From positions 1 to 64,000 of the forward strand of contig WTXI01000052.1 of assembly GCA_022376515.1 (NCBI GenBank): a stretch of DNA of 64,000 nucleotides, given 5' to 3'. The stretch comes from Lactifluus volemus (Eukaryota; Basidiomycota; Agaricomycetes; Russulales; Russulaceae). The notes beneath the pieces are model-generated. The model made no database searches, was not told the DNA's origin, and was given only the letters and a program-made list of their open reading frames with translations. This document shows, piece after piece, positions 8,208-64,000 of this stretch. The translations under genes were made by a program, and so were the position numbers. Position 1 is the first letter of the stretch. The number at the start of each line of letters is the position of its first letter.

Positions 8208-11200
8208 ATGAACTGGACCACATCAACGGCAACCTCTTCATCTAACTTTCGCCTCATCATCGATTCCGCCTTAGACGAGTACACCAAGCAGACAGGGATA
8301 GACCTCACTCAGAACTTGAATCCGTTCGCTCATAAAATCCAACACTCCGATTCCCCAGAAGTTGTTCTGGAATTATTCCAGGAGCGAGCAAACGAGTTTA
8401 AAGAATATCGTGATAGAAATCGGAAGCTGATAAATGCCCTCAAGCCGGCCGTGCAGCTCCTTCATACATTCTCTAATATCCTTGGTGAGGTGATTACCCC
8501 CGTGAGTACCACCCCCATTGTTGTCCATCCAACTGTTCTGATAACCGCTTCCCTAGGCCCCATTTCCTCCAGCAAAGGCAATTTTCGTCGGAATTGATGT
8601 TCTCCTTTCAGTACATGCCCCCATTATTATACTCTACGGATAATCCTGACGTGAGTAACTTATACTAGGCTGCAAATGGTGTCAGTGCGAGCTATGATGC
8701 CCTCGAAGAACTTTTCGAATGCGTCCAGAATTTTCTCGAGCGACTACATGTATATACCGAAATCTCCCCCACCGCCGCAATGAAACACATACTCGTCAAG
8801 CTTATGGCTGAGTTGCTCTCGGTGCTTTCCTTGGCAACAAAGCAAATCAAGCAGGGGCGTTTCAGTAAGTGTTTTCTTACCTATACTTTACGTATGGTTG
8901 ATTATGTGCAGAGAAATTCGCAAAGAAGCTATTAGGAGAGAGTGAGGTCGAAGCTGTGCTGCAGAGACTCGACCGTCTTACCCATGAGGAGGCTCGCATG
9001 ACCATTGCTCAGACTTTCCAAGTCGTGCATGGCCTTATGAGTAATATAAGAGTAGTCATGGGCGGTGCGTAACACTTCTTCAAGTTGGTTGGTAACAAAA
9101 CCTTTGATTGAAATATTGTGCTGGTAGATGGCAGGGCATCGATCAGTGACATCCGAAAGGCTCTTAGTATGTTCCGTGGGTATCTGTGAATCCATATAGA
9201 CCTGACTGAGTGCCTATCTAGTCGATATGCAAGAGACAACCAGCAAGATAAACAAGATGGAACGTTCGTCATCGCCGAGTTCTTCTAGTTTGGTCTTCGA
9301 GGCTGACACCACATTGAAGGTGACCAGTTACAAAAGGACGTCAGAAGCTGGCTCTCTCCTCCAAATCCTTCGATAAATCACAACATTGCCTGTGAAGTTC
9401 ACCAGACTGGGACTGCAGCGTGGTTTTTGGAGGGGAGTATTTTCTCCGAGTGGAAAGAAAAGGGATCCTTGTTATGGATACATGGAAAACGTATAGATCT
9501 CTCATCTTTGGCGTGTTCAAAGTCCTGACTCTCTTGTTGTCTCGTAGCCGGGTCCGGAAAAAGCATACTCCTGTACGTCTTGAAGAATCGTTTCATCCAC
9601 GATCACTGAGGCGTCAGCTAGCTCTGCAATTATCGAAGACGTCTCAAGTTTACGCGCGGCCGGGTTAGCCTCCATGGCATATTATTATTTTGATTTCAGA
9701 GACCCCAAGAAGCAGAACTGCCATGGCCTACTTTCTTCGCTCCTTATACAACTCTCTGCCAAGTCAAATCCATGTTATGACGTACTCTCCCGGGTGTATG
9801 CGGCACATGATAGTGGCGTGCTAAATCCTGCCGACAAGACTCTCACACAAACTTTACGGGACATGCTGGAACTTCCTGGACAGGGGCCGGTTTACATCAT
9901 CATAGATGCGTTGGATGAATGCCCAAATAATGCTGGGATGCCAACGCCCCGCGAAAAGGTGCTCAGACTCATCAAGGAGCTCGTCAATCTGGAACTTCCG
10001 AATGTCCACATTTGTGTTACGAGCCGTCCTGAATTTGATATCCATGCTGTTCTCGAGCCTTTGACAAGTTTTCGGGTGTCCCTTCACGACCAAAGCGGAC
10101 AAAACAGGACATCTTGGATTACGTAACCGAGGTCGTTCACACGGACCTCACCATGGGGAGCTGGAGAGAGCAGGATAAGCAACTCGTCATTACGACCCTT
10201 TCAGAAAAAGCGGATGGGATGTAAGTCACTATATTAATCACCCCTCACTTCAGGTTATTGAATTATGCAGGTTTCGATGGGTGTATTGTCAGTTGGAGTG
10301 CCTCCGTCGCACCCTTCCTGCAAGTATCCAGGTTGCTCTCGACGAGTTGCCCAAGACTTTGGATGAAACATACAAATATGCATTACGTTCGATTGACGAA
10401 GAGAAACGTGAATATGCCCAACGCCTCTTCCAATGCCTCACCATATCGATTCGTCCCTGCACGTTGTGGACTTGCTGAAGTTCTCGCAATACGATTTGAA
10501 CCCGACGTGCTTCCAAATCATGACGTAGGCTGGCGCCTAAGTGATGCAGAGGAAGCCGTTCTCTCGGTTTGTTCGAGTTTGATATCGGTGGTCGATGTGG
10601 GGGCTCCAAAGTCGTCCAGTTCTCCCACTTTTCGGTCAAGGAATTCTTGACCTCAGATCACCTTGCCACGTTAGGGATGACCTTTCCGTTATCACTTCTT
10701 CCCGGTCCGCAATACTATTCTGCCAAGGTATGCTGAGTATCCTCCTCAAGCTTGACGACCGCATCGACAAAACGATAGCCAGACTTTGCCATTGGCACGC
10801 TATGCCGCTCGGCATTGGTCGATCACGCCCAATTTGGTCATGTATCACAAGATATAATGAAGGACCTCTTCGACCCGGACAAACCTCATTTTTCTGCCTG
10901 GGTTGGGTTTTCAATACAGATCGTCCTTGGAACAACACATGCGACGATGCATCCGACACGTCCAGAAGCGGTCCACTATACTACGCGGCATTGTATGGAT
11001 TCCATGACCTGGCCGAGCACCTTGTCCTTGCCCATCCATCTCAAGTAAATGCGAGGGGTGGATATCACACCTCTCCACTGCGGGCTGCACTATTCACAAA
11101 AATATGGAGATCGCGAAGTTGCTGCTACAACATGGTGCGGAAGTGGATGTCCGAGATGACCAAGGCCAGACTTTTTTGCCCTTGGCATTACGACTCGGGA

Positions 11201-12360
11201 GGAATGCCGATCTCGTACGGTTACTCCTGGAGAATAATGCTGATGTCAACGCACCGACCAGGAGGGTCGCACTCCACTTCATTTGGCACAATGACGGGAC
11301 AACTGGAAATCTCCAATATGTTGCTCCAGCGCAGCGCCATTGTGGACTGTCCGGGCGTAAAAGGCTGGACTCCGCTGCACTATGTGGCACGATACGGATA
11401 TGCAGATATCATGATGCTGTTGCTAGACCGCGACGTGGACGTGAACGTACAAACAGAAGATGGTCAGACCCCGCTACATGTTGCGTCTTACGATGGACAC
11501 TCCGAGATCATAAAGACGCTCGTCCAACGTGGTGCAGCTGTCAATACCGGGACCACGATGACGATACCTCCTTGCATCACGCCGCGTGGAATGGGCATCT
11601 CGATATCGCACAGTTCTTGATCGACAACGGTACAAAATCGATGTTCGGAATGGGAACGGGGAGACCGCATTGTTCCTAGCATCTGGAAACGGGAAACTGG
11701 GCGTTGTGCGCTCTTGATCGATCAAGGCGCAGACTTGAATTCTCGGTCAATGAGAAATTGGGTCCCGCTACACTCTGCGGCACGATACGGCCATCTTGAT
11801 GTCGTACAGCTTTTGCTAGACCATGGCGCGGATCCAAACGTACAGAAGGACGACCTTTCGACCCCGTTGCATCTTGCATCGGCCAACGGACACATTAAAG
11901 TGTCACAGATGCTTGTTGATGGGGGGCAAGTGTTGATTCTCGTAACAACTTGCAAGACACACCACTTATACAGGCAGCCGGAAACGGGAAAATCAATTTG
12001 GTACACTTCCTACTCAAGTCAGGAGCGAACGTGCACGCCAGGAATAGAAACGGCTGGACCGCGTTACATTGTACGGCATCGTGGGGCGGTCATCTTAAGA
12101 TCGTCAAGTTGCTGCTCAGCCGGGGTGCAGATATCGATCGCGAAATCAAGCGGATAAGACTGCAGCAGACTTGGCATCGGACCTTAACCAAACTAGGATT
12201 GCAAGTTTCCTGGCCGAGTACAAGGGAGACGAAAATGTTCGGAACAAGATATGCTCAACTACATTGATGTAATACTACAGGACGCTGATGATGATGAGGA
12301 CTACGGAAAAACCTGAATCTGCTGATGAAGGAGGGGAGGTACGGAATAATTCTCACTTTG
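8208..12360 (+). pseudogene. Goodbye-NACHT-ankyrin NLR pseudogene, inverted relative to the array
   Basis: Same architecture and exon order as the minus-strand copies but clearly diverged. The N-terminal Goodbye-type helical domain is read from ATG 8208 (LDEYTKQTGIDL, LLHTFSNILGEV). Helical linker exons lie at about 8670-8864 and 8913-9062. The pre-NACHT segment (SWLSPPNPSINHNIA) is at about 9317-9490. The P-loop PGSGKS is on a short exon at about 9548-9571. Walker B IIIDALDECPN and TSRPE are in 9640-10095. A one-base loss near 10095 breaks the frame in SGQ-KQDILDY. Another break lies near 10460 after SIRP, and the ankyrin part (about 10980-12270) is spread over three frames. At least four frame changes make a functional product unlikely. 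It probably represents an older family member in opposite orientation. Confidence 0.85.
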
Positions 12361-15489: not shown

Positions 15490-18400
15490 CTAGGCCCCCT
15501 CACCAGCGTGCTTTGAAAGTAATTGCCCAAGTTTGTTGTGAGACTCCCCCAAAGCGACTTGCAAAGGCGTCTGGCCCTCCTCGTTTTGGAGATCCAGATT
15601 CGCCCTATGCTCGAGTAGAACCTCGGCAACCTGGAGATGTCCATATTCTGCCGCTAAATGCAACGGGGTGAGTAGAGCCTCGTCCTGCGCGTTCACATCA
15701 GCACCACGGTCAAGCAACAGCCGCACAACCTCCGCGTATCCGAAATTCGACGCATTGTGCAAAGGGGTATCGTTCCTCCGAGTCCGAAGATCCACGCTTG
15801 CACCACGCTCAATGAGCATCCGCGCAATCGCAAGTTGTCCCCATAACGCTGCCATGTGTATTGAAGCGATGCCATCATCGTTCTGTTCGTTGACATTCGC
15901 GCCGTGATCGAATAACAATTGTGCAATGTCGCAATGCCCGTATTCCGATGCCTTGTCGAGAGGACTGCAATGATCCTCATCCCGGAGATTCAAGTCAGCG
16001 CCATGCTCCAATAGCAGACTGGCGGCCACCAGGTCTCCGTTCTCCGACGCGATTAACAATGAAGTCTCCTTTCCTTTGGTCACCGAGTTTGGATCTGCGC
16101 CGCGGTCAAATAGCGCTCTTATGACCCTGGCATGCCGAGATCTCGATGCCAGGTGTAATGGAGTTGCTCCTCCGTAGTCCCGAGCATTCAAATCAGCACC
16201 GTGCTCCATCAGGAAAACCGCAACTTCCAGATGACCTCTGGCCGACGCAGCGTGAAGTGGAGTCACGTGCCTTCCGCCTCTAGCGTTGACACCTTCTGGG
16301 CTTGTACCGATTAGACGTTCTATTGTATCGCGGAAACCGCAAAGCGCAGCATAATACAGTGGGAGTGCATCGGGTTTCTTCGGGGAACCGATGAACAAAA
16401 GTGACCTCCGGGGTCGATCGATGTTGTATACCCAGACCCAGCACGCAAAATGTGGTTTGTCCTTGTCAAAGAGGTAGTCCATCTCATCTTGGATGAGCGA
16501 TGATACACCCTCAAACTGTGCATGATTGGTCCAATACTGTGCTGCATATTTGGCCAGGGGGAAATTCTTGATGCGATGTTTGTCCATTGTGTCATCTAGT
16601 TGAAGTAGTATGCAAAGGCAAGCCCGTGCGAGGAATGTATGTGCGGACAGTAGAGGAATGTGATAGTGGGAAACAAGATTCGAGTTCGCCAGCCGACTTG
16701 ACGTCAGGTACTCTTTCACAGTGAAGTGCGAGAACTGCACAATTTTCGAATCGTCGTCCTCGACAATGGTGACTAAAGTAGAGCACGCTGACATCACAGC
16801 GTCCTCTGCATCCTCGGGACGCCAATTCGCGTCAAACCCGGGCATCGCTTCCGCGTCCAGCTCAATCGCAAAGACCTCGACGAGCTCCTTCACGCGAAGT
16901 GGGCGAACGGATACTGTGAGGCATTGGAATAGACGATATGTGTATCCCCGCTTCTCCTCGTCAATGTCTTGCAAAGTCCGGTCATATGTCTCGTCCAGAG
17001 TCTTTGGCAACTCATTCAACGCCCGTCTGATGCTCTGCGGAAAGCACCGACTCAACCTCTCTATTTGGCAGTGGACCCACCGAAACCTAGGTCATCGCGT
17101 GAGCACGCACTATAATATAACCAACTTGATCACAACTTACATCCCGCCAGATTTCAGTGTGAGTGTGTCAATCACCAATATCTTGTCCTCTTCTCTCCAG
17201 CCTCGCATCTTCAGGTCCGAGCGAACCACAGAGTGGATGTAGTCGATAATATCCTGGTGTTGTCCAGATTCGTTGTGGAGAGAGATATTATGGACTGCTA
17301 GGGGTTCGAGAACGGCCCGGATGTCTGCCTCAGGACGACTGGTGATGCAGATATGTAGACATGGATGTCGGATGTTGACAAGCTCCTGGACAAGGTCAAG
17401 GGCTTGATTGCGTTGTGTAGGGAACCCAGATGAATTTGGGCATTCATCCAGTGCGTCTATAATCAGGTAAAGTGGGCCTTGCTCTGGAAGTTCGATCATC
17501 TTCTTCAAGCATTGTAAGAGCACATCGTCACTAGGCTGTCGAGATCCATGATCGTATTTTGAGTAGAGACCAGCAAGAATTTCACAGAAGGGATAGGATT
17601 GAGCACATATTTGAACAAGAAGGGATGACAACAAGTTCCGGGTGTCCCGCTTAGACGCGTCACGAAAGTCGAAATAAAAACACCCGAAGGTGGCCAACCC
17701 AGCATCGCGCAAGTCTTGAACCTCCTGAATGATCGTTGAGCTTCTCATGGGAGTGAGTACATCATTCAGGCAGCCGTGACAGACTGATCACGTACCACAG
17801 CACACTCTTTCCAGCACCGGCTACAACACAGAAGACTATCAGACGCAGCAAGACTCACAATTGGGAGGGACACTTACGGTTCCCATGTATCCATAAAAGT
17901 GAACCGGTATCTTTCCATTCTTTGAAGGTGTCTCCTTGAATAAACCACAACGCAGTACCATCATGATGTGCCCTGCAAGCAATATTGTGGTTGGTGTACG
18001 GGTCCGGAGGAGATAGCCAACGTCGAAATTTTTCTTGTAATTGATCACCTATGGTAGCTACGTCAGAATGAACGTCCAAAGGGAGGCAGTATGAGACACA
18101 AACGGTTCGCCTTGTTGATTTGCTCTGCCGCGGATTGCATGAGAACTTGGGCCCACAGGTTAAAACGTTTCATTCTGAAGTATGAGGTGGACACACCTAA
18201 AGCTTGCCGAATGCCTTCCGTAGATGCTTTTCCATCTACTCGGATAAGGATTAAGTACCATACACATGGTCATAGGATTCGGGTATGAGCCGCACCTTCC
18301 ATCACCACCGTCATATTATTCACGAGACCATAGATGATCTCCAAAGTCTGCACTGCGGTTGCCCGAGACTCCTCTTGCGTGAGTCTATCGATCCTTCTTA

Positions 18401-19147
18401 ACACCGCCTGGACATCACTGTCGCCAAGTAGCTTCTTTGCGAATTTCTCTGTGGCAAGTTACGCCAAAGAAGTTCTGAGAAAGGATGAACATACTGAGCC
18501 GTCCCTCGTTCATCCACTTTGTCGCGAGGGAGAGTACGGAAAGGAACTCGGTCAAAATCTTGACTAGAACTTCGGTCATCGCCGGAGTGGGTTCGATCTC
18601 GGGTCGAGTATAACTCGCGAGGCGCATGAGGAAGTTTTCGAGGCACTCAAAGACATCGACGAGTGTATCGTGACCATCCTTGACGCCTTTTGCAGCCTAA
18701 TCGACCCAGATGTGATAAATAGGTAATTTGACATGACAAAGAAAACACGCACGGCGAGAAGGACGCTGATACCAGAAAAGACTATTTGTGCGGGCGGGAA
18801 TGCCTACAATACTCGTCAAGATACAGCAACAGTGGACAGACAAACCCGGTTTGACTTACTAGGCTAGCACCTGCGCCAAGGACCGGATTGGTCGATAAGC
18901 TATACAAGCCATCCACGATCTGGTTCAGATATTTCATCAATTTAGAGTCGTCACTTTTATCGAGCTTCTCTGCGTGCTTCTTTAAAAGGTTCAAGATATC
19001 ATCGGGGGACTTGCAACGTTGGATTTCGGTAGATAGTGGATCACACTGAAGGTCTTTCCCTGTCTGCTTCGAGTAGTTTGTCAAGGCGGCACTGAGAATG
19101 GGTTGCAAGTTGGGAGAAGGGACAGCAGCATCGTTAACTGAGGACAT
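15490..19147 (-). CDS. NLR A: Goodbye-NACHT-ankyrin STAND receptor, intact
   Basis: Ten exons (5' to 3'): 19147-18860, 18803-18753, 18696-18495, 18448-18296, 18235-18197, 18145-18104, 18048-17878, 17820-17796, 17740-17141, 17086-15490. The sum is 3168 nt, giving 1055 aa. Residues 1-113 form a Goodbye-type N-terminal helical domain and 114-300 a helical linker. NACHT has Walker A GNPGAGKS (314-321), Walker B IIDALDECP (417-425) and TSRPE (456-460); a winged-helix-like part (LPKTLDETYD) follows. About nine ankyrin repeats fill 764-1054. The 25-nt exon 8 carries most of Walker A. Such proteins are cytosolic ATP/GTP-switch receptors in which repeats sense a ligand and the N-terminus signals. A LINE lies about 50 bp upstream of the ATG, so the native promoter is now 3.4 kb away. 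Confidence 0.9.
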
Positions 19148-19185: not shown

Positions 19186-19198
19186 CCCTTGCCCATCT
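19186..19198. repeat. Target-site duplication, left copy (LINE)
   Basis: CCCTTGCCCATCT, identical to 22582-22594 on the other side of the element. The uninterrupted sequence is still visible upstream of copies B and G (ACCCTT.CCCATCTTGCT). Confidence 0.85.
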
Positions 19199-22100
19199 TT
19201 TTTTTTTTTTTTGAATCTGCATTTATATAGCGCAACATGTTCATCACAACAAAGACGCGCTCAACTGCTACACATGAACAATCTAGGTATAGGGGGGGGG
19301 TGATGTGTCTTTAATATGGAAAGTGGTATGTGGGGTAGGTGTGTGAGGTGTGTGTGGGGCTTGGGCGGTGTGCCCTAATGATTCAGCCATGGTCTTCTGG
19401 GGGTCGTTCTCTTCTCCACGGCCTAACGCCGGCCTGTGTCTCCTCTATGAATTTCGCCAAGGCCTCTCCTCCCTTCTTTGTCCCGAAGATAATACTCGGT
19501 GACAGTGTCTGGGACACCGGGCGTAAGTGTCGGTCGCGGGCAGCACGGAAACGCTCGCAGTGAAAAATGATGTGCGTGGGGGTCTGTAGGGCTGCGCGGC
19601 CACACTGGCACCCGTGGGGGTCCAGGGCGCGGGGTCGGTGGCGGGCATTATATTCTCCTGTGAAAGCGTGCTCAGTGAGAAGTCTAATGGCTGTGCAGAA
19701 GACTGGCCGGGAGGAAGTAGAGATTCCCTGTACAAATTCAGGTGGTTCTCCGGAAGGTGGATGGTGCAGGGCCCGGTACGCCGGGTTGGTGCGAGGGTCG
19801 TCCAACCAGATTTGCTCCCAGTCGGTGATGGACTGATGGCGCGAGGCCACTCGAAGTGCCTCGATGGTGGGGGCGGTGATGATGAGGTCCGGGGCTGCAC
19901 GGGCTGCCGCGTCGATCGCTATGTTCTGGAGGCGTTCGAGGGGGAGGAATGAGGCGTTGCCGGGAATCCACCGAATTGTGCAGGTGGAGGCGGGATGGGT
20001 GGAGAGGAGGTCCATGATTGTATCACAGATTGCCTTGCAGGAGTCTGCGTTGTCATGGCGGTCGGTGACCTGGCAATATGGGAGGACAAAGTGGTCAGCT
20101 GAGAAGATGGAAACAGAGGGGGAGGGTGAGCCTGCTAGGAGATCCCTGGCTAGGCTAGCCGCATCCGCTACAGCACGGAATGCCGCGTCCCTGGCTGACG
20201 AGTTTTGGCCTAGGACAGTGGCCTGGTGGCCCACTTCCTGGCCTTGGCGAAAGGCAACGCACGCCGCCGTCCACATGGGGTGTGTCTGCGTGGGGTTGGG
20301 ACCCAGGGCCCGGCAGTAAACCAGGACTTGGTCCGTCCTGTTGCGATGTGTGCCGACGATGGAAGACATGAGCTTCTTCCGGTCGTCCCCCTTGCAAACC
20401 TGAGTGGACACGAGGAAGCGATCGGGGGTTGGGTAGCACGATCTCCATGGGGGGTGGTCGAAGACGGGGGGCTTCCGGCTGTCCGCAGGGACCCGTTTGA
20501 TAAGACGTCAGATGCAGGTGTCTGGGGGCTGAGCGAGAGGGGGGTAAGGGAGGGGAATCCCGCTACCCTGGGCCGAACACCAAGGTTGGCCCAACCTCTG
20601 GAGGACCGGCGAGTTGAGGGGGAGCGTGAGTAAACGGATCGCCGCCTGTCTCACAAGTTTCTCTATTCGGAGTTGTGCAGGTAGAATAGCCGAGAGCTGG
20701 TGCAGGGGTTCCCGAGGCGAACTCTGGAAGGCGCCCGTGATGGTGGTCACTGCCGAATTCTGCACTGCCTGAAGAACCTTAACCAGCCTCTTCTGGTCGC
20801 GGAACCAAACCGGGGCACCGTAAGTCAAGACAGGTATGCAGATGGCATTGTATGCTCGGCGCCAGCTGCCATGGTCCAGGCCGCGCACCGAGTTGCCTAA
20901 GAGTTGGAGGGCCTTGAGGGTGCTCTTCGTCCTGGAGGTGACGACGGCAATGTGTTTATCCCACGACAGTCTGTGGTCAAAGTGAAAGCCCAGGTAGCGG
21001 ATGTGGTCTGAGGACTTAACTGCGTAGTATGTGGAGTGGTCCAAATCCGGTAGGTAGATGGTATCTGGGCGGATGCCATGCAGGTTTGGGTTGGGGCGCT
21101 GCCTCGTGAAGAAGAGAACCTCCGTTTTTTCTGGCTCAATGGTGAGGCCTGATCTTCTGCACCACTCGTGACACTTGGTGTAGAAGGAGCGGAGCCTGGA
21201 GGTCAGAACTCCATACGATGGGGCCCGGGCGAAGATGTTCCCATCGTCAATGTACATAAGGAAGGTGGCATCCTCCCAATCCCTGGCGATGTGGAGAAGG
21301 GGGGAAGCATAGATAATTGACAGGATCGGCGAGATCGGGGAGCCTTGGGGAGTGCCCAGCTCCAGGCCAAAATTCTCGGAGGAGAAGTTGTTGAACCGTA
21401 GGTGGACCGTTCTGTCCCTGAGGAAGGAAGCGATCCACCTGCAGAGTTCGGCAGGGAAGCCCAGCGATCGAGCAAGGGCCACCAAGCGCGCATGGTTAAC
21501 GTTGTCGAAAAAGCCTTGAATGTCAAAGAGGAGTGTGCCGCAGACACTCCCCAGGGCATGGGCTGTTTCTACGTCATGGGTCAGGCAGAGGCCTGCATCT
21601 GTGGTGGAGGAGTGAGGTCTGGCACCAAACTGGGTGGAGGGGATGAGACTCAGCGCGGTTATGTCGAAGGAGAGGCGTTTGGCTACCACTTTTTCCAGTA
21701 GCTTGCCTATGCATTCGAGGAGGGCTACTGGACGGTAGCATTTGGGGAGGGTGTAGTCTTCTTTACCGGGCTTAGGTACCACTGCGATGGCCGCCGCCTT
21801 CCAAGCCTTAGGGTGGTAGCCCTGGCGGAGACAAGCGTCGAAGATGGTCCGGAAGCGCTCGGGGTGTGCAGCGAAGGCCCATTTGATCAGTTTGTAGTTG
21901 TGCCCTGAGGGGCCCGGGGCGGACTTGTTGCTGGTTGGACGAAGGGCATCGGAGATTTCAGAGAGGGTGACCGGGGCGTAGGGTCTCGGGTCGGCAGCCG
22001 GGGGGTCATCTGGGAACACCTCAGGGACCGGAACGGGCTGGGCGCGGAAGAAACGATCTCTGAGGGCATTAGCCATCAGAGCGGGGTCGTCGGTGAGGCC

Positions 22101-22581
22101 TGTCGGGGTTGAGAGAGCGGGGATCAGACGTTGTCTGCGACCCAGGCGCCATTTGGCGGCCGTCCAGAGCCTCTCGGGGGTGGCGTTGTGAAGGAAGTCG
22201 TTAGCCCATCGACGTTTGGCCTCTCGGACCTCCTTCGAGAGGGCTTTGAGGGTTGCTTTCCGGGTGTCCGGGGTGGCTGCCTCACGGACTGCAGCCGCTG
22301 CCTGCGAGCACGCCTCATCCCACCAGGCTGCTGCCCTTGGGGAGAAAAGTTTGCGCTTCTCGAATACGGTGTGAGATGTCCGTTCGATGTCCTGGGAGAG
22401 GAGGTCAGCTGCCTGATCAATCAGGTCAGGGGAGGATAAGATGTGGGGGACTAATTGGCTGATCTCTGAAAACTTCTTGACCCAAGCCTCCTTGGCTTCG
22501 TCGTCAATGACATAAGATGTGCGTCGGGGGCCCAGCTCGATGGCCGAGGCCAGGAAATGGTTGTATGAAACCCGTAGGCCC
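19199..22581 (-). mobile_element. Non-LTR retrotransposon (LINE), 5'-truncated, about 3.4 kb
   Basis: A minus-strand element with a poly(A) tail (15 T on the plus strand, 19198-19212), a short 3' UTR and perfect 13-bp target-site duplications. It encodes reverse transcriptase and an RNase H-like region with a terminal zinc-knuckle-like motif. The apurinic endonuclease expected at the N-terminus is missing, because the element is cut at its 5' end as is usual after incomplete reverse transcription. Intact duplications and tail suggest a recent insertion. It separates the NLR A start from its conserved upstream region. Confidence 0.92.
19383..20507 (-). pseudogene. LINE C-terminal part: RNase H-like and zinc-knuckle-like region
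   Basis: Same frame as the RT ORF, directly after the TGA; open from 20507 to 19383 (the first ATG-led stretch starts inside it). The middle (VYCRALGPNPT ... ATVLGQNSSARDAAFRAVADA ... IFSADHF ... IRWIPGNASF) follows the layout of a LINE RNase H domain. However, the usual first Asp (DGS) is absent, so I doubt catalysis. The end has CQCGRAALQTPTHIIFHCERF-like spacing (Cys-x-Cys ... His-x3-His/Cys), typical of the C-terminus of such elements. It ends IIFGTKKGGEALAKFIEETQ; a related fragment occurs at 37102-37219. Confidence 0.75.
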
Positions 22582-42010: not shown

Positions 42011-42014
42011 ATTG

Positions 42015-45043: not shown

Positions 45044-48000
45044 CTATGTCCCTTCACCAGCGCGCTTGGATAGTAATTGCGCAAGTTCGTCGTCAGACCA
45101 CTCCAAAGCGACTTGCAAAGGCGTCTTCCCGCTGTTGTTTTTAAGATGCAGATTCACGTCATGCTCGAGTAAAACCTCGGCGACCTGGAAATGACCGTAT
45201 TGAACCGCGACGTGCAACGGGGTGAAGAGGTTGTCATCCTGTGCGTTCACATCAGCACCACGGTCAAGCAACAGCCGCACAACCTCCACATATCCCAATT
45301 CCGACGCAACGTGCAAGGAGGTCATATTCTTCCTATCCCGAATATTCACGCTTGCACCACGGTCAAGGAGCATCCGTGCAATTGCAATTTGTCCATTTCG
45401 CGATGCAAAGTGCAACGGAGCCAAGCCATATTCGTCCTGTTCGTCGGCATTCGCGCCGTGATCGAGTAATAACTGCACAATGTCGCAATTCCCGCATTCC
45501 GATACCTTCTCGAGCGGACTCCAAAGATCCTCATCCCGGAGATTCATGTCAGCGCCATACTCCAATAACAGTCTGGCCGCCACAACATCGCCGTTCTCCG
45601 ACGCGATTAATAACGAAGTCTTCCTTTGGTCAGTCACCGAGTTTGGATCTGCGCCGCGGTCAAGTAGCGCTGTCATGACCCTGGCATCCCGAGATCTCGA
45701 TGCCAGGTGTAAGGGAGTTGCTCCTTTGTTGTCTCGAGTATCCACATCGATACCGTTCTCCAGCAGGAAAAGGACGACTTCCAGATGACCTCTGGCCAGC
45801 GCAGCGTGCAGTGGAGTCACGTGCCTTCCGCCCCTAGCGTTAACCTCCTCTGGCCTTGTACTGATCAGACGTTGTATGATATCGCGGAAACCACAAAGCG
45901 CGGCATAATACAGTGGGAGTGCATCGGGTTTCTCCGGGGAACTTGTGAACAAAGAGGACCTCCACGGTATATCGATGTCGTGTACCCAGACCCAGCATGC
46001 GAAATGTGGCTTCTCCTTGTCGAAGAGGTAGTCCATCTCATCTTGGATAAGCGATGATACACTCTCGAACTGAGCATGTTCGATCCAGTACCGCGCTGCA
46101 TATTGAGCCAGGGGGAAGTCCTCAATGTGATTTCTATCCATTGTGTCATCGAGTTGGAGGAGTATGCAAAGGCAAGCCCGTGCGAGAAATGTATGTGCGG
46201 ACAGTAGAGGAATGTGGTAGTGGGAAACAAGATTTGAGTTTGCCAGCCGACTTGATATCAAATACTCCTTCACAGTGAAGTGCGAGAACTGCACAAATTT
46301 TGAATAGTCGTCCTCGACAATGGTGACCAAAGTAGAGCACGCCGACATCACAGCTTCCTCTGCATCCTCGGGACGCCAATCCGCATCAAATCCGGGCATC
46401 TTTTCCGCGTCTAATTGAATTGCAAGCACCTCGACGAGCTCCTTCAGACGAAGTGGGCGAATAGATACCGTGAGACATTGGAATAGACGATATGTATATC
46501 CCTGCTTTTCCTCATCGATGTCTTGCAAAGTCCGGTCATACGTCTCGTCCAGAGTCCTTGGCAACTCATTCAACGCCCGCTTGATACTTTGAGGAAAGCA
46601 CCGACGCAATGTTTCGATTTGGCAGTGGACCCATCGAAACCTATCTCATCGTGTGAGCACCCACTATAAAATAACAATCTCAATCACAGCTTACATCCCG
46701 CCAGCTTTGAGTGTGAGGGTATCAATTACCAATACCTTATCGTCTTCTCTCCATTTTCGCATCTTCGGGTCCGAGCGAACCACGTAGTGGATATAATCGG
46801 TAATATCCTGGTTTTGTCCAGATTCGTTGTGGAGAGAGATCTTGTGGACTGCTAGGGGTTCGAGAACGCCTCGGATGTCTATCTCAGGACGACTCGTGAT
46901 GCAGAGATGTAGACATGGAAATGGGAGGTTGGCGAGCTCCTGCACAATATTAAGGACTTGTTCGCGTTGTGTAGGGAACCCCGACGAATTTGGGCATTCA
47001 TCTAGTGCATCTATAATCAGGTAGAGTGGGCCTTGCTCCGGAAGTTCGAGCATCTTCTTCAAGCATTCTAAAAGCACATCGTCACTAGGCTGTCGAGATC
47101 CATGGTCGTATTTCGAATAGAGAGCAGAGAGAATTTCACAGAAGGGATCATATTGAGCACAGATTTGAACAAGAAGGGATGACAAGAAGCCGTGGGTGTC
47201 CCGCTTAGAAGCATCACGAAAGTCGAAATAAAAATAGGCGAAGGTGGCCAACCCAGCGTCGTGCAGGTCCTGAATTTCCCGAATGATTGTTGAGCTTCTC
47301 AAGGGAGTGAGCGCATCATTCAGGAAAGGGTGACTGATTCATCACGTACCACAGCACACTCTTTCCACAACCGGCTACAGCACAGAAGACTATCAGTCTT
47401 AGCAAGACCCACAATTCGGAGAGATACTTACGGTTCCCATGTACCCACAAAAGTGAACCATTCACTTTCCATGCTTTGAAGGTGCCTCCTTGAATAAACC
47501 ACAACGCAGAACCGTCGTGATGTGCCTTGCAAGCAATATTGTGGTTGGTGGACGGATCCGGGGGAGACAGCCAACGTCGAAATTTTTCTTGTAATTGGTC
47601 ACCTATGGTAGCTACTTCATAATCAACGTCCAAAAGGAAGCAGGATGAGGGTACAAACGATTCGTCTTGTTGATCTCCTCTGCTACACGTTGCATAAGGA
47701 CTTGGGGCAACAGTTTAAACCTTTTCGTTCTCATATATCGGTTGGGCGTACCTAGAGCCTGCCAAATGCCTTCCGTAGATGCCTTTCCATCTACTCAGAT
47801 ATGGATTAAGTACCATACACAAAGTCATAGGATTCGGGTGTGAGCCGCACCTTCCATCACAACCGTCATATTATTCACGAGGCCGTGGATAATCTCCAAA
47901 GTCTGCACTGCAGTTGCCCGACTCTCCTCCTGCGTGAGCCTATCTATCCTTCTTAACACCGCTTGGACATCATTGTCGCCGAGTAGTTTCTTTGCAAATT

Positions 48001-48710
48001 TCTCTGGGGAATGTTGGACCAAAGTAGTTATGAGAAGAAAGAGAAACGTACTGAGCCGTCCCTCGTTCATCCATTTTGTCGCAAGAGAGAGTACAGAAAG
48101 AAACTCAGTCAATATCTTGACCAATACTTCAGTCATCGCCGGTGTAGGTTTAATCTCAGGTCGAGTATAACTCGTGAGGCGCGCGAGGAAGTTTTCGAAG
48201 CACTCAAAGACGTCGATAAGCGTATCGTGACTATCCTTGACGCCCTTTGCAGCCTAATGGACCCAGAGATAAAAAATGTGATGAGAGATAACGTAAGTCA
48301 AACACTCACGGTGAGAAGAACGCTGATACCAGAAAAGACTAGTTGTGCGGGCGGGAACGCCTAAAAAATGCGTCAATATGTATCAATAGTGGAAAGACAA
48401 ATTTTCTTTGACATACTAGACTAGCAGCTGCGCTCAGGCCCGGATTGGTCGATAAGGCATACATACCATCCACAATGTGATTCAAGTATCTCGTCAATTT
48501 CGAGTCGTCACGGCTATATTCATCCAACTTCTCGACAATTTTCTTGAACACATTCAGGATTTCATTGGGGGAATTGCAACGTTGGATTTCAGCGGACAGT
48601 GGATCGCTCTGGAGGTCTTTCCCTGTCTGCATCATGTAGTTGGCTAAGGCGGCACTAAGAATGGGTGGCAAGTTGGAAGAAAGGGAAGCCGCATCGTTCA
48701 TCGAAGACAT
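45044..48710 (-). CDS. NLR E: Goodbye-NACHT-ankyrin STAND receptor, intact
   Basis: Ten exons: 48710-48417, 48360-48310, 48253-48052, 48003-47851, 47790-47752, 47700-47659, 47602-47432, 47374-47350, 47294-46695, 46640-45044. The sum is 3174 nt, giving 1057 aa. The N-terminal domain is rather different from A (MSSMNDAASLSSNLPP; KLDEYSRDDSKL). Walker A GNPGCGKS is at 316-323; Walker B and TSRPE are present. The ankyrin part has about nine repeats and ends LLSKRAGEGT. CACGTG lies 85 bp upstream of the ATG. Likely functional. Confidence 0.9.
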
Positions 48711-49965: not shown

Positions 49966-52900
49966 CTATGTCCCCTCACCAGCGCTCCTTGATAGCAGTT
50001 GCGCAACTTCGTCCTCAGACTCCGCCAAAGCGAGTTGCAAAGGCATATGGCCGTCCTTGTTTTGGAGATGCGGATCCCCATTACGTTCAAGTAGAACCTC
50101 GACAACCTGGAAACGTCCGCTTTTTGCCGCGAAGTGCAACGGGGTGAAGAGATCGTCATTCTGCGCATTCACATCAGCACCACGGTCAAGCAACAGCCGC
50201 ACAACCTCCATGTAGCCGCGTTTTGATGCTCCGTGCAAAGGGGTCTCGTTCTCCAGAGTCCGAGGATCCACCCGTGCACCACGGTCAATGAGCATCCGTG
50301 CAATCGCAAGTTGTCCGAAATACGATGCGACATGTAATGGAGCCCGGCCATCATCTTTGTCCTGTTCGTCGGCATTCGCACCGTGATCGAATAATAATTG
50401 TACAATGTCGCAATCATCCCATCTTGATGCCTTGTCGAGAGGGCTATAATGATGGTCACTCCGGAGATTCATGTCAGCGCCATGCTCCAATAGCAGTCTG
50501 GCGGCCACCACGTCCCGGTTCTCCAACGCGATTAACAATGAAGTCATCTTTGGTCTGTCACCGAATTTGGATCTGCGCCGTGGTCAAGTAGCACTCCCAT
50601 GGCCCTGGCATCCCCAGATCTCGATGCCACGTGTAAAGGAGTTGCTCCTTCCTTGTCCCGAGCATCCACGTCAACACCGTTCTCCAGCAGGAAAAGGACA
50701 ACTTCCAGATGACCTCCGGCCAACGCAGCGTGCAGTGGAGTGACCTGCATTCCGCCGCTAGCGTTGACATCTTCTGGGCTTGTACCGATTAGACGTTCTA
50801 TTGTATCGCGGAATCCGCAAAGCGCGGCATAATACAGTGGGAATGCATCGGGTTGCCCCGGGGAACTGACCGAAAATGACATCCAGGGTTTATCGATGTC
50901 GTATAACCAGACCCAGCATGCGAAATGTGGTTTATCTTTGTCGAAGAGGTGGTCCATCTCATCTTGGATATGTGATGATACGTCCTTGAACTGTGCATGA
51001 TCAACCCAGTACTGCGCTGCATATCCAGCCAGGGGGAAACCCTCGATGCGATCTTCGTCTATGGTATCATCGAGTTGGAGGAGTATGCAAAGGCAAGCCT
51101 GTGCGAGAAATGTATGCGCAGACAATAGAGGAATGTGATAGTGCGAAACAAGATTGGAGTTCGCCAGCCGACTTGATGTCAGATACTCCTTCACAGTGAA
51201 GTGCGAGAACTGGACAACTTTAGAACCGTGGTCCTCGACAATGGTGACTAACGTAGAGCAAGCCGACATCACAGCTTCTTCTGTATCCTCGGGACGCCAA
51301 TTCGCATCAAATCCGGGCATCGTTTCCGCGTCCAGCTCAATCGCAAAGATCTCAACGAGCTCATCCACACGGAGTGGACGAACGGATACTGTGAGGCATT
51401 GGAATAGACGATATGTGTATTGCCGCTTCTCCTCATCGATGTCTTGCAAAGTCCGGTCATACGTCTCATCCAGAGTCTTTGGCAACTCATTCAACGCCCG
51501 CTTGATGCTCGGGGGAAAGCACCGACGCAACGTTTCGATTTGGCAGTGCACCCACCGAAACCTATTGCCATCGTGTGAGCACGCACTCTAAAATAAAAAC
51601 CTCAATCACAGCTTACATCCCGCCAGCTTTGAGTGTGAGGGTATCAATTACCAATATCTTGTCCTCTTCTCTCCAGTTTCGCATCTTCGGGTCAGAGCGA
51701 ACCACAGAGTGAATATAGTCGATAATATCCTGGTTTTGTCCAGATTCATTGTGGAGAGAGATCTTGTGGACTGCTAGGGGTTCGAGAACGGCTCGGACGT
51801 CTATCTCTGGTCGGCTGGTGATGCAGAGATGTAGACGTGGAAGTGGTACTTTGAGGAGCTCTTGCACAATCTTGAGGGCTCGCTCGCGTTGTGTAGGGAA
51901 CCCCGATGAGCTCGGGCATTCATCCAGTGCGTCTATAATCAGGTAAAGTGGGCCTTGCTCCGGAAGCTCGATCATCTTCTTCAAGTATTCTAAAAGCACA
52001 TCGTCACTTGGCTGTCGAGATCCATGATCGTATTTCGAGTAGAGTCCAGTGAGGACTTCACAGAAGGGATAAAATTGAGCACAGAGTTGAATAAGAAGAG
52101 ATGATAGCAAGCTGCGGGTGTCCCGCTTCGAAGCGTCACGAAAGTCGAGATAAAAATACGCGAAGGTGGCCAGCCCAGAATTATGCAAGTCCTGGACATC
52201 TTGAATGATCGTCGAGCTTTCCGAAGAGGTGAGTAAACCATTCAGACAACAGCGCAATCACATACCAAAGCACAGTCTTTCCAGAACCAGCTAGAATACA
52301 GGAGAATCAGTAATAAAGACAGGAAACGGTAAGATAAACCTACGGTTTCCATGTATCCACAAAAGAGAACCGGTTGCTTTCCATTCTTTGAAGGTGTCTC
52401 CTTGAATAAACCACGACGCGGTGCCATCGTGATGCGCCTCGCGAGCAATGTTGTGATTGGTGGACGGATCCGGAGGAGATAGCCAACGTCGGAATGTTTC
52501 TTGTAATTGGTCACCTATGGTAGCCATTTCAGAATCAATGTCCAAAGGGAGGCAGTATGGAGATACAAACGGTTCGTCTTGTTTATTTGCTCTGCTGCAT
52601 GTTGCATGAGGACTTGAGCCCATAATTTAAAACAGCTCGTTCTCAAATGTCAGTGGGACGTACCTAATGCCTGCTGGATGCCTTCCGTAGATGCCTTTCC
52701 ATCTAATCAGATAAGAGTTGAATATCATACCCATGATCGGATTTGAGTATGAGCCGCACCTTCCATCACTACCGTCATATTCTTCACGAGACCATGGATA
52801 ATCTCGAAAGTCTGCGCTGCGGTTGCCCGAGACTCCTCTTGTGTGAGCCTGTCGATCCTCCTTAACACCGCCTGGACATCATTGTCGCCGAGTAGCTTCT

Positions 52901-53613
52901 TTGCAAATTTCTCTGTGGAAAGTTGAGTGAAAGAAGTTTTTAGAAAGGAAGAGCGTACTGAGCCGTCCCTCATTCATCCACTTTGTTGCTAGGGAGAGTA
53001 CCGAGAGGAACTCGGTCAGAATCTTGACCAGTATTTCAGACATCACTGGAGTTGGTTCGATCTCGGGCCGAGTATAACTCGTGAGGCGCATGAGGAAATT
53101 TTCGAGACATTCAAAGACATCGATGAGGGTATCGTGACCATCCTTGACGACCTTGGCAGCCTAATGCACCCACATGTCATGAATAGGTAATTTGACATAA
53201 CAACGCAAATCACACACCGCGAGAAGGACGCTGATACCAGAAAAGACCATTGGTGCGGGAGGGAATGCCTACAATACCCGTCAAGATACAACAATAGCGA
53301 AACAGAAAATCCTGGTTTGACTTACTAGACTAGCACCTGCGCTAAGAACCGGATTGGTCGATAAGGTATATAAGCCATCTACGATGTGGTTGAGGCATTT
53401 CGTCAATTTAGATTCGTCATTCTTGTCGAGCTTCTCTGCGTGCTTTTTTAAAACGTTCAAGATATCATCGGGGGACTTGCAAAGTTGGATTTCGGTAGAT
53501 AGTGGATCACTCTGGAGGTCTTTCCCTGTCCGCTTCGAGTAGTTGGCCAAGGCGGCGCTGAGAATTAATTGCAAATTGGGAGAAGGGATAGCAGCATCGT
53601 TAACCGAAGACAT
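49966..53613 (-). pseudogene. NLR F: Goodbye-NACHT-ankyrin gene with one frameshift
   Basis: Exons 1-9 are intact: 53613-53326, 53268-53218, 53160-52959, 52912-52760, 52702-52664, 52612-52571, 52514-52344, 52290-52266, 52216-51617. Exon 10 starts at 51561. One base is missing at about 50547-50557 compared with copy E, in ankyrin repeat 4 after PNSVTDQR. The frame then ends at 50544, giving 862 aa. The remaining repeats (down to 49966, ending LLSRSAGEGT) are open in another frame. Walker A is GNPGSGKT; Walker B and TSRPE are intact. Either a recent pseudogene, a shortened receptor with about four repeats, or a sequencing error. CACGTG is 91 bp upstream. Confidence 0.82.
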
Positions 53614-56993: not shown

Positions 56994-59900
56994 CTATGTC
57001 CCCTCACCAGAGCGCTTTGATAGTAGCTTCGCAATTTCGTCGTGAGACCGCTCCAAAGCGAGTTGCAAAGGCATCTTGCCGTCCTCGTTTTGGAGATGCA
57101 GATCCGCACCACCATCAAGTAGAACTTCGGCAACCTGGAAACATCCTTCTTGTGCCGCGAAATGCAACGGGGTGAAGAGATCGTCATCCTGTGTATTCAC
57201 ATCAGCACCACGGTCAAGCAACAGCCGCACAACCTCCATGTAGCCGTTTTTCGATGCTCTGTGCAAAGGGGTCTCGTTCTCTCGAGTCCGAGGATCCACC
57301 CGTGCACCACGCTCAATGAGCATCCGTGCAATCGCAAGTTGTCCGTAATACGATGTAAGGTGTAATGGAGCCCAGCCATCATCTTTGTCCTGTTCGTCGG
57401 CATTCGCACCGTGATCGAATAGTAATTGTGCAATGTCGCAATACCCCCATTCAATTGCAATCTGGAGAGGGCTACAATGATCCTCATCCCGGAGGTTCAT
57501 GTCAGCGCCATGCTCCAATAGCAGTCTGGCGGCCACCACGTCTCTGTGCTCTGACGCGATTAACAATGAAGTCTTCTTTTCGCCAGTCACCGAGTTTGGA
57601 TCTGCGCCGTGGTCAAGTAGCACTCTCATGGCCCTGGCATCCCGAGATCTCGATGCCACGTGTAAGGGAGTTGCTCCTTCGTTGTTCAGAGTATCCACAT
57701 CAATACCGTGCTCCAGCAGGAGAACGACAACTTCCAGATGACCGTAGGCCAACGCAGCGTGCAGTGGAGTCACGTGCATTCCGCCCCTAGCGTTGACATC
57801 TTCTGGGCTTGTACCGATTAGACGTTCTATTATATCGCGGAAGCCGCAAAGCGCGGCATAATACAGTGGGAATGCATCGGGTTGCCCCGGGGAACTGGAA
57901 CTGATGAACGGAAATGACATCCAGGGTTTATCGATGTCGTATAACCAGACCCAGCATGCGAAATGTGGTTGATCTTTGTCGAAGAGGTGGTCCATCTCAT
58001 CTTGGATATGTGATGATACGTCCTTGAACTGTGCATGATCAACCCAGAACTGCGCTGCATATTTAGCCAGGGGGAAATCCTCGATGCGATTTCTGTCTAT
58101 GGTATCATCCAGTTGGAGGAGTATGCAAAGGCAAGCCCTTGCGAGAAACGTATGCGCGGATAGTAGAGGAATGTGATAGTGCGAAAGAATATTTGAGTTC
58201 GCCATCCGACATGATGTCAGATACTCCTTCACAGTGAAGTGCGAGAACTGCACGACTTTAGAACCATCGTCCTCGACAATGGTGACCAAGGTAGAGCACG
58301 CCGACATCACAGCTTCCTCTGCATCCTCGGGACGCCAATCCACATCAAATCCGGGCATCGTCTCCGTGTCTGATTCGATCGCAAGCACCTCGACGAGCTC
58401 CTTCACATGAAGCGGACGAACGGATACTGTGAGGCATTGGAATAGACGATATGTGTATCCTTGCTTCTCCTCATCGATATCTTGCAAAGTCCGGTCATAC
58501 GTCTCGTCTAGAGTCTTCGGCAACTCATTCAACACCCGTCTGATGCTCTGAGGAAAGCACCGACGCAACGTTTCGATTTGGCAGTGGACCCATCGAAACC
58601 TATGTCATCGTGTGAGCACCCACTATAAAGCAACCAACTCAATCATAGCTTACATCCCGCCAGCTTTGAGTGTGAGGGTGTCAATTACCAATACCTTATC
58701 CTCTTCTCTCCATTTTCGCATCTTCGGGTCAGAGCGAACCACAGAGTGGATGTAATCGATAATATCCTGGTTTTGTCCAGATTCGTTGTGGAGAGAGATG
58801 TTCTGGACAGCTAGGGGTTTGAGAACGGCTCGGATATCTATCTCAGGACGGCTGGTGACACAGAGATGTAGAGATGGAAGTGGTATATTGACAAGCTCCT
58901 GCACAATATCAAGGGCTTGCTCGCGTTGTGTAGGAAACCCCGACGAATTTGGGCATTCATCCAGTGCGTCAATAATCAGGTAAAGTGGGCCTTGCTCCGG
59001 AAGTTCGAGCACATCCTTCAAGCATTGTAAAAGCACATCGTCACTAGGCTGTCGAGATCCATGATCGTATTTCGAGTAGAGAGCAGAGAGAACTTCACAG
59101 GAGGGATCAGATTGAGCACAGAATTGAATAAGAAGGGATGACAGCAAGCTGCGGGAGTCCCGCTTGGACGCGTCACGAAAGTCGAAATAAAAATAAGCGA
59201 AGGTGGCCAACCCAGCATCGTGCAAGTCCTGAGCTTCCCGAATGATCGTTGAGCTTCTCATGAGAGTGAGTACATCATTCAGGCAACCGTGACAGAATCA
59301 GCACGTACCACAGCACACTCTTTCCAGAACCAGCTACAAGACAGGAGACTATTAGTCATAGCAAGACTCACAATTGCGAGAGATACTGACGGTTCCCATG
59401 TATCCACAAAAGTGAACCAGTCTCTTTCCATTCTTTGAGGGTGTCTCCTTGAATAAACCACAATGCAGTACCATCGTGATGTGCCTTGCAAGCAATATTG
59501 TGGTTGGTGGATGGATCCGGAGGAGATAGCCACCGTCGAAAGGATTCTTGTAATTGGTCACCTATGGTAGCTACTTCAGAATCAACGTCGAAATGGAGAC
59601 AGTATGAGGATACAAACGATTCGCCTTGTTGATTTGTTCTGCCGCACGTTGCACGACGACTTGTGGCCACAATTCGAAACGTTTCATTCTCGAATATCAG
59701 TTGGACGTACCTAGAGCCTGCCGAATGCTTTCTGTAGATGCCTTTCCATCTGATCGGAGAAGGGTTAAGTACATATGGTCACAGCATCAGAGAATGAGCC
59801 GCACCTTCCATCACCACTGTCATATTATTGACGAGACCATGGATGATCTCCAAAGTCTGCACGACCGCCGCCCGAGACTCCTCTTGTGTGAGTCTGTCGA

Positions 59901-60657
59901 GCCTGCGTAACACTGTCTGGACGTCATTGTCCCCGAGTAGCTTCTTTGCAAATTTCTCTGTGGCGAGGTGGGCTAGAGTAGTTGTTCGAAAAGAAGAACG
60001 TACTGAGCCGTCCCTCATTCATCCACTTTGTTGCTAGGGAGAGTACCAAAAGGGACTCGGTCAAAATCTTGACCAGTATTTCAGTCATCGCCGGAGTAGG
60101 TTCGATCTCGGGTCGAGTATAACTCGTGAGGCGCATGAGGAAATTTTCGAGACATTCAAAGACATCGATGAGGGTATCGTGACCATCCTTGACGCCCTTG
60201 GCAGCCTAATGCACCCACATGTCATGAATAGGTAATTAGACATGACAAGGCAAAAACGCACCGCGAGAAGGACGCTGATACCAGAAAAGACTATTTGTGC
60301 GGGAGGGAATGCCTACATTAATCGTCAAGCTGCGGCAATAGTGAAACAGACAAACTTGGTTTGACTTACTAGACTAGCACCTGCGCTAAGGACCGGATTG
60401 GTCGATAAGGTATACAAGCCATCCACGATGTGGTTGAGGTATTTCATGAGTTTAGATTCGTCATTCTTGTCGAGCTTCTCTGCGTGCTTCTTTAGAACGT
60501 TCAAGATATCATCGGGGAACTTGCAAAGTTGGATTTCGGTAGATAGTGGATGACTCTGGAGGTCTCTCCCTGTCTGCTTCGAGTAGTTTTCCAAGGCAGC
60601 ACTGAGAATTAGTTGCAAATTGGGAGAAGGGATAGCAACATCGTTAACCGAAGACAT
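56994..60657 (-). CDS. NLR G: Goodbye-NACHT-ankyrin STAND receptor, intact
   Basis: Ten exons: 60657-60370, 60312-60262, 60205-60004, 59957-59805, 59749-59711, 59659-59618, 59561-59391, 59333-59309, 59253-58654, 58599-56994. The sum is 3177 nt, giving 1058 aa. Walker A GNPGSGKS (314-321), Walker B IIDALDECP and TSRPE are present, and about nine ankyrin repeats end LLSKRSGEGT. Most similar to F and H in the ankyrin part. The exon 7 donor is GTCAGT, slightly unusual but acceptable. CACGTG lies 106 bp upstream. Likely functional. Confidence 0.9.
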
Positions 60658-62350: not shown

Positions 62351-62362
62351 GTAATGTAGTGA

Positions 62363-62735: not shown

Positions 62736-64000
62736 CTATGTCCCCTCACCAGGGCGCTTTGATAGTAGCTTCACAATTCCGTGGTGAGACCGCTCCAAAG
62801 CGAGTTGCAAAGGCATCTTGCCGTCCTTGTTTTGGAGATGCAGATCCGCACCACGCTCAAGTAGAACCTCGGCAACCTGGAAACATCCTTCGTGTGCCGC
62901 GAAGTGCAACGGGGTGAAGAGATTGTCATCCTGTGCATTCACATCAGCACCATGGTCAAACAACAGTCGCACAACCTCCGCGTATTCCGATTGAGACGCA
63001 TAGTGCAAGGGGGTCTTCTTCCTCCCATCCCGAGGATCCACGCTTGCACCACGCTCAATGAGCATCCGTGCAATCGCAAGTTGTCCGTAATACGATGCAA
63101 TGTGTAATGGAGCCCAGCCATATTTGTCCTGTTCGTCGGCATTCGCACCGTGATCGAATAATAATTGTGCAATGTCGCAATGCCCCCAATTCGATGCTAT
63201 CTGGAGAGGGTTCAAATGATCCTCGTCCCGGAGGTTGATGTCAGCGCCATGCTCCAATAGCAGTCTGGCGGCCACCACGTCTCCGTGCTTTGACGCGATT
63301 AACAATGAAGTCATGTTTTGGTAAGTCACCGAGTTTGGATCTGCGCCGTGGTCAAGTAGCACTCTCATGGCCCTGGCATCCCCAGATCTCGATGCCAGGT
63401 GTAAGGCAGTTGCTCCTTCGTTGTCCCGAGTATCCACATCAACACCGTGCTCCAGCAGGAAAACGACAACTTCCAGATGACCGTAGGCCAACGCAGCGTG
63501 CAGTGGAGTCGCGCACATTCCGCCACTAACGTTGACATCTTCTGGGCTTGTGCCGATTAGACGTTCTATTATATCGCGGAAGCCGCAAAGCGCGGCATAA
63601 TACAGTGGGAATGCATCGGGTTGCTCCGGGCAACCGGTGAACGGAAATGACATCCAGGGTCTATCGATGTCGTATAACCAGACCCAGCATGCGAAATGTG
63701 GTTTATCTTTGTCAAAGAGGTGGTCCATCTCATCTTGGATATGTGATAATACGTCCTTGAACTGTGCATGATCAACCCAGTACGCCGCTGCATATTTAGC
63801 CAGGGGGAAATCCTCGATGCGATTTTCGTCTATGGTATCATCCAGTTGGAGGAGTATGCAAAGGCAAGCCCGTGCGAGGAATGTATGCGCAGACAATAGA
63901 GGAATGTGATAGTGCGAAACAAGATTGGAGTTCGCCAGCCGACTTGATGTTAGATACTCCTTCACAGTGAAGTGCGAGAACTGGACAACTTTAGAACCGT
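62736..64000 (-). CDS. NLR H: Goodbye-NACHT-ankyrin receptor, 5' part beyond window
   Basis: Only the C-terminal part of exon 10 is in the window. It is open from base 64000 to the stop at 62736. It reads from the conserved VVQFSHFTVKEYL through the post-NACHT helical region (FDKDKPHFACWVWLYDID) into about nine ankyrin repeats ending LLSKRPGEGT. No stop or frameshift in this part. Closest to G. Start, Goodbye domain, Walker A and Walker B are outside, so integrity cannot be judged. Confidence 0.85.
   Translation of the reverse strand, partial: GSKVVQFSHFTVKEYLTSSRLANSNLVSHYHIPLLSAHTFLARACLCILLQLDDTIDENRIEDFPLAKYAAAYWVDHAQFKDVLSHIQDEMDHLFDKDKPHFACWVWLYDIDRPWMSFPFTGCPEQPDAFPLYYAALCGFRDIIERLIGTSPEDVNVSGGMCATPLHAALAYGHLEVVVFLLEHGVDVDTRDNEGATALHLASRSGDARAMRVLLDHGADPNSVTYQNMTSLLIASKHGDVVAARLLLEHGADINLRDEDHLNPLQIASNWGHCDIAQLLFDHGANADEQDKYGWAPLHIASYYGQLAIARMLIERGASVDPRDGRKKTPLHYASQSEYAEVVRLLFDHGADVNAQDDNLFTPLHFAAHEGCFQVAEVLLERGADLHLQNKDGKMPLQLALERSHHGIVKLLSKRPGEGT

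Follow-up and report, generated by a model that had tools for sequence, protein, structure and literature searches.

What keeps so many copies of one receptor gene side by side in a fungal genome, and which part of the receptor is made to vary? The question is raised by a 64,000-nucleotide stretch of Lactifluus volemus DNA (the window, bases 1-64000 of contig C468, itself 221604 bases long, in an assembly of 62.4 Mb and 628 contigs) that carries tandem genes for NOD-like receptors (NLRs) of the Goodbye-NACHT-ankyrin type. In our judgement this is probably a birth-and-death tandem array of NLRs whose ankyrin faces bind different variable ligands. Comparison of the sequences supports birth and death of copies, exchange of ankyrin sensors between them and diversifying selection on the predicted binding face; by analogy with the NLR family to which the genes belong, we infer roles in recognition, putatively of non-self, and in cell death.

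Five intact receptor genes in the window

Self-comparison of the window revealed eight same-strand copies (A to H, minus strand) of one Goodbye-NACHT-ankyrin gene, all in register, with the full copies 77-89% identical to each other over approximately 3.6-3.9 kb of DNA. Exon borders were set by hand on copy A, based on reading frame, splice motif and conservation, and were carried to the other copies via the alignment. Each of the seven complete copies (A-G) has ten exons, and the 9 introns, each 46-60 nt long, carry GT..AG borders without exception in 7/7 of them. Five of these seven are intact and free of stops: A (15490..19147, 1055 amino acids), B (25404..29065, 1058 amino acids), D (38036..41698, 1060 amino acids, which requires initiation at an ATG lying two codons 5' of the aligned one), E (45044..48710, 1057 amino acids) and G (56994..60657, 1058 amino acids), the last serving as reference for domain coordinates. 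Copy C (31552..35214) is broken at residue 933 by an in-frame stop and has lost its 3' end, its homology stopping at 31628, short of the normal 3' end, and copy F (49966..53613) is broken by a frameshift in exon 10 near 50547 (near residue 862). Copy H lies in the window with part of its exon 10 (62736..64000), which is open to its stop. The eight same-strand, ten-exon copies of the original prediction were thus found independently, as were its five intact genes of 1055-1060 residues and the copy that leaves the window; its pair of single-lesion copies holds for F, with one frameshift, but not for C, which lost its 3' end besides gaining the stop.

The array continues past the window. Copy H, whose start lies near 66388 on C468, is broken there: exon 3 lacks one nucleotide, and the NACHT frame contains a TAA. 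A ninth copy, I (C468 68125-71759), is broken as well, with one nucleotide missing from exon 7, and the array ends at approximately 71.8 kb. Intact copies thus make up 5/9 of the same-strand copies of C468, namely A, B, D, E and G.

Domain organization and predicted fold

One full-length model, that of copy G, was scanned against Pfam, and it matched Goodbye, NPHP3_N/NACHT and ankyrin domains alike, in agreement with the receptor type originally proposed. The Goodbye domain (PF17109, E 2.3e-18) covers residues 20-142 in exons 1-3 (60119..60600, minus strand). The NPHP3_N/NACHT domain covers residues 289-463 in exons 7-9 (58836..59472, minus strand), with NPHP3_N matching residues 289-459 (E 5.9e-38) and NACHT residues 309-463 (E 5.1e-14), and the ankyrin domain, with nine repeats, covers residues 736-1058 (56997..57965, minus strand). 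The Walker A and Walker B motifs of copy G read GNPGSGKS and LIIDALDE, and both motifs (GNPGxGKS/T and LIxDALDE) are present in 7/7 copies A-G, broken ones included.

An AlphaFold2 model of exon 10, based on the eight window sequences, contained nine helix pairs within residues 243-529. Its mean pLDDT (predicted local distance difference test) was 67.8, with block values of 68-81 in residues 241-280, 84-98 in 281-530 and below 50 in the first 147. The top solved-structure matches to exon 10 in the PDB were designed ankyrin proteins (E 2e-20), which bears on the ankyrin part only; the NACHT exon gave a single match to PDB sequences, at chance level. The ankyrin repeats of copy G, the copy in which they were measured, share a mean identity of 35% and a maximum of 48%, below the >85% likeness of internal repeats of the het-d/het-e type.

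Diversifying selection on the predicted binding face

Among the five intact window copies, the ratio of nonsynonymous to synonymous rates (dN/dS, or omega; Nei-Gojobori method) was highest in the ankyrin domain, at 0.59, compared to 0.17 in the Goodbye domain, 0.10 in residues 143-288, 0.23 in NACHT, 0.19 in 464-579 and 0.17 in 580-735, with a mean dS of 0.33-0.60 outside the ankyrin domain. The chassis, judged by these rates, is under purifying selection. This bears on the reading that the array is mostly decaying repeat-like sequence kept by chance, in which the open frames would be recent unbroken duplicates without receptor function. Such decay would fit the four broken copies among the nine on C468 and the long interspersed nuclear element (LINE) that parts copy A from its promoter side. 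However, ratios of 0.10-0.23 at this synonymous divergence point to long purifying selection, splice sites are retained in all seven complete copies and omega rises above 1 in a sharp peak at one register of the repeat, as described below. We therefore regard chance retention as scarcely credible next to a functional receptor array.

Positions 2, 3, 5, 13, 14 and 33 of the ankyrin repeat, which we take to be the target-contact positions of designed ankyrin binders, were fixed within the script that produced the first per-position rates. In the five intact window copies these positions (47 codon columns) had dN 0.58, dS 0.29 and omega 1.98, versus dN 0.15, dS 0.34 and omega 0.45 in the remaining 215 columns of repeats 2-9. 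The excess in the proportion of nonsynonymous differences (pN) was reached in 0/20000 column shuffles, while the synonymous proportion (pS) was no different (p 0.71). Single positions depart from this pattern: pN was 0.16 at position 33 and 0.36 at position 10, which is not one of the six. When the register was shifted, the contact register ranked first among the 33 shifts on either measure, omega or dN, for the window set, for the four intact copies of a partner array on contig C600 (described below) and for both sets combined; the next best register reached an omega of 1.3-1.4. Bootstrap 95% intervals of dN-dS were 0.12-0.45 for the window set and 0.14-0.54 for the C600 set, both excluding zero.

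A codon model fitted to the nine intact sequences gave omega 3.25 at the contact positions, 0.53 in the rest of the ankyrin domain and 0.185 in the chassis. The log-likelihood was -932.4 with omega free and -943.4 with omega held at 1 (2 x difference = 22.1). The model used kappa 1 (no transition bias) and ignored recombination, and its exact omega is not to be relied on. Some points weigh against reading these rates as selection on a binding face: the assignment of the contact positions is presumed; the window and C600 sets are not independent, as D6 and E6 of the partner array are near-alleles of D and E; and recombination can inflate the omega of a codon model, an effect lessened but not removed by the test on counts and by the control over registers. 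Within these limits, the counts indicate that amino acid change in the ankyrin repeats outpaces silent change at the presumed target-contact positions, and they support diversifying selection on the predicted binding face.

A partner array on a second contig

Searching the assembly with the NACHT exon of copy G returned matches at 79-100% identity at nine places on C468 and eleven on C600, while the other 130 matches were at or below 59% (150/606 candidates were scored, making these counts a lower bound for the genome). We read 40 kb of C600 (44001-84000) and modelled six copies, named D6 to I6 after the C468 copies they face. Two long blocks run in reverse orientation and consistent order: C600 45449-55120 corresponds to C468 71475-61827 (96.6% over 9.7 kb), and C600 68879-81014 to C468 49971-37856 (94.5% over 12.3 kb). 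Gene identities are 98.9% for D/D6, 97.5% for H/H6, 95.1% for E/E6 and 90.4% for I/I6, in which exon 1 of I6 has been replaced.

The two arrays differ in both number and condition of their genes. Of the six modelled C600 copies, four are intact (D6, E6, G6 and H6). I6 is broken by loss of the exon 1 start; F6, also broken, shows GC as the donor of one intron, and approximately 0.47 kb of inserted DNA (C600:66228-66700) interrupts its ankyrin exon. Copy H is thus broken on C468 while H6 is intact on C600. Facing copy C, the NACHT match of C6 ends early at 84169 and its ankyrin match starts at 87451, suggesting that C6 is probably broken too. Four further C600 matches (at 107, 113, 139 and 146 kb) face the two C468 copies A and B; the three of these loci that were sampled are 90-94% identical to both, and the copy at 113 kb has a broken exon 10 frame.

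Is C600 the other haplotype? We think it very probable, given the collinearity of the two contigs, that its array is the allelic counterpart of the C468 array. The competing explanation is a segmental duplication, in which the arrays would be paralogous segments of one haploid genome and the copy-number contrast would lie between paralogous clusters. It draws on the flanks: window 100-8100 matched C207, not C600, and did so from 100 to 4564 at 96% before the match ended (3/3 candidates scored), and C468:72000-74000 had no C600 match among its 61 matches (40/87 candidates scored). However, the collinear blocks, at 94.5-96.6%, are close to the 96% of the C207 flank, and the unit at C468:90000-94000, single there, recurs three times on C600 (1-1627, 17410-19290 and 27489-29846). 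Other contigs of the assembly are paired as well. An RPB2-type match occurs twice with identical score (C1 and C95), the other two gene types being found single, and the 43 DUF6533 matches, in keeping with a mushroom-forming basidiomycete, include a collinear pairing on C57 and C362; because of these doubled matches, the assembly appears to retain some second haplotypes. On balance we consider a segmental duplication improbable. Certain facts nevertheless count against the allelic assignment or limit it: no unique flank joining C600 to C468 was found in these searches, so a duplicated segment is possible; the remaining five C600 copies are known by their coordinates, three also by 3.6-kb loci; and the pairings G/G6 and F/F6 rest on gene order, not on whole-gene identity, with G6 89.7% identical to I versus 88.9% to G, and F6 85.5% identical to H versus 84.2% to F. 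In the flank search, window 4565-8100 had no match elsewhere in the assembly.

Exchange of ankyrin sensors

Over residues 1-690, G and G6 differ at 0-3 residues per 30, whereas 8-15 differences per 30 are found in 11/13 bins beyond. Their chassis thus looks allelic while the ankyrin domain does not. Copy G is a mosaic, like I upstream and like H downstream of an inferred recombination breakpoint at 58360 (minus strand, residue ~603); a run test over I/H sites gave z -12.1, with a longest run of 41 sites that was reached in 0/5000 shuffles. Separate phylogenies of the receptor parts, which had been proposed as a check of the original prediction, conflict over G: it groups with G6 in the chassis tree (residues 1-660) and with H6 in the ankyrin tree (residues 736-1058), with support of 100 in each case, and when either topology is imposed on the opposite part, the approximately unbiased (AU) test rejects it (5.4e-9 and 1.1e-6).

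All 11 triples that were run-tested had negative z values (-2.4 to -12.1). The longest-run test fell below 0.05 in seven and not in the four for F6, H6, D6 and A, and rate variation along the gene may contribute to the clustering. Among these copies, the exchange of an ankyrin part is best shown by the sites and trees of G. A genome-wide search for the source of the ankyrin domain of G6 yielded no donor; the best match elsewhere stood at 69% (111/904 candidates scored). An older split of ankyrin alleles combined with a homogenised chassis would look alike; recombination is required under both readings.

The active birth-and-death evolution first suggested by the density of the cluster is thereby supported by the nine versus eleven copies, the contrast in state of H and H6, the exchange of ankyrin parts and an omega above 1 at contact positions. 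A bolder picture, to which we incline less and which we put forward tentatively, is that of a cassette library: a constrained chassis whose ankyrin sensors would be swapped by gene conversion at a breakpoint just behind the NACHT module, diversifying selection at the positions randomised in designed ankyrin repeat proteins (DARPins), and, within a single individual, two nuclei with different sensor sets.

Proposed function and relation to known systems

By analogy with other NLRs, we suggest that the concave ankyrin face of each copy would bind a different variable ligand. Binding would release the NACHT switch and allow NACHT to oligomerise, and the assembly would bring the Goodbye domains into a form that triggers local death or defence. 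Goodbye is predicted to have a four-helix core in common with MLKL, and its functional similarity to death-inducing domains is called open in the same source (PMC9815663); the N-terminal Goodbye domain of our copies places them beside the HeLo/MLKL-type and Goodbye effectors treated there.

Alternatively, the receptors could be allorecognition (heterokaryon incompatibility) factors and not sensors of other organisms, which we regard as unlikely. The Podospora NLRs het-d and het-e control incompatibility (PMC12222747), and the strong difference in sensor between the partners G and G6 would suit such a role. However, should C600 represent the second haplotype, a single individual carries both sets, a situation that a simple role in allelic incompatibility would forbid; this coexistence problem is addressed for basidiomycetes in PMC8229728. 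Furthermore, STAND (signal transduction ATPases with numerous domains) genes far outnumber incompatibility genes (PMC4986451). We therefore favor sensing of variable ligands over incompatibility as the function of the array.

In kind, the parts of this locus are known: Goodbye-NACHT NLRs, positively selected ankyrin repeats and birth-and-death were all described by Dyrka et al. 2014 (PMC4986451), and NLR clusters in PMC12258605. In the former, Goodbye is one of the two domains that occur most often per species, birth-and-death is proposed for fungal NLRs, and the polymorphic ankyrin sites map to the concave face, on its beta-hairpin/loop and its inner helices. Fungal Goodbye-NACHT-ankyrin NLRs share the effector-NACHT-repeat architecture with our array (PMC4986451). 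The ankyrin test there used genes with repeats >85% alike within the gene, thought to vary by contraction, expansion and shuffling of repeats. In contrast, the repeats of copy G (mean 35%) lack the near-identity on which that mode rests, and variation here is seen from one tandem copy to another and in swaps of the ankyrin part.

Clustering of NLRs is common to our array and Sordariales, where 225 clusters of two NLRs and 47 of three to five are recorded and 16/272 are paralogous (PMC12258605); with nine same-strand paralogs and eleven matches in the partner array, the Lactifluus array is larger than those clusters of two to five. The nank family of Tuber melanosporum is an expanded NACHT-ankyrin family, as here, but is mentioned with a different kind of diversification mechanism (PMC4986451). 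Our array instead diversifies in copy number and through the exchange of domains. In nank, the mechanism is said to be alternative splicing. Plant NLR (R-gene) clusters presumably differ from this array in their leucine-rich repeats and NB-ARC switch. New here are the size of the array, diversification between copies with dissimilar repeats and the array-to-array contrast within one assembly; no haplotype-resolved basidiomycete NLR array was found in the titles and abstract openings of the literature searched.

We know of no ligand for nearly all fungal NLRs. The locus supplies closely matched receptors with one conserved chassis and named variable contact residues and, in the same assembly, a partner whose sensor differs; screens for ligands and swap experiments could therefore be designed directly.

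Other elements in and beside the array

A LINE-type retrotransposon of approximately 3.4 kb with a poly-A end lies at 19199..22581 (minus strand; RVT_1, E 6.7e-36). Its reverse transcriptase frame (20511-22613) is open over 701 codons, and its second frame (19386-20507) had no Pfam match. It is flanked by a 13-bp target-site duplication, AGATGGGCAAGGG, at 19186-19198 and 22582-22594. Its boundary is ~50 bp upstream of the ATG of copy A and separates the promoter side from the gene. The LINE explains part of the longer spacing at copy A, and its insertion may have silenced or rewired this intact copy.

At 8208..12300 on the plus strand lies an inverted, decayed Goodbye-NACHT-ankyrin gene, with Goodbye (E 5.9e-6) and NPHP3_N (E 7.5e-23) matched on its frames and frame changes in the last exon. 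Its inverted and decayed state agrees with the original prediction, but it belongs to another subfamily than the array gene: of the 40/166 candidates scored in this DNA search, the best other matches were C603:82642-86085 and C390:55078-58523, at 79%, which rules it out as an inverted member of the array, and its identity to the array NACHT exon is 56-57% at the amino acid level. The same two contigs hold many further matches at 72-76%. By the places of the scored matches, arrays of this other subfamily occur at C390:49800-244980, at C603:82642-140180 and on C116. Paired scores lead us to guess that C390 and C603 may likewise be two haplotypes that differ in copy number.

Four plus-strand frames between the genes were scanned against Pfam. 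The frame at 13105-13452 (116 amino acids) encodes a CCCH zinc finger, and those at 14358-15056, 24277-24924 and 55880-56374 (233, 216 and 165 amino acids) had no Pfam match. The latter three lie between receptor copies and resemble each other; perhaps they are a passenger gene, or gene fragments, in the duplicated unit.

Beside the array, at C468:81116-85152 (L010:7116-9997), a NACHT frame is followed by a WD40-repeat frame (E 6.8e-99), and the pair looks like a WD40-type NLR. A more distant relative of the array gene, with 53% NACHT identity, lies at 86.5-90.1 kb on C468, where a 785-codon frame represents its NACHT and ankyrin parts. Finally, a Copia-type retrotransposon frame (L023:725-3286) is found near a further ankyrin frame (L023:5523-7040).

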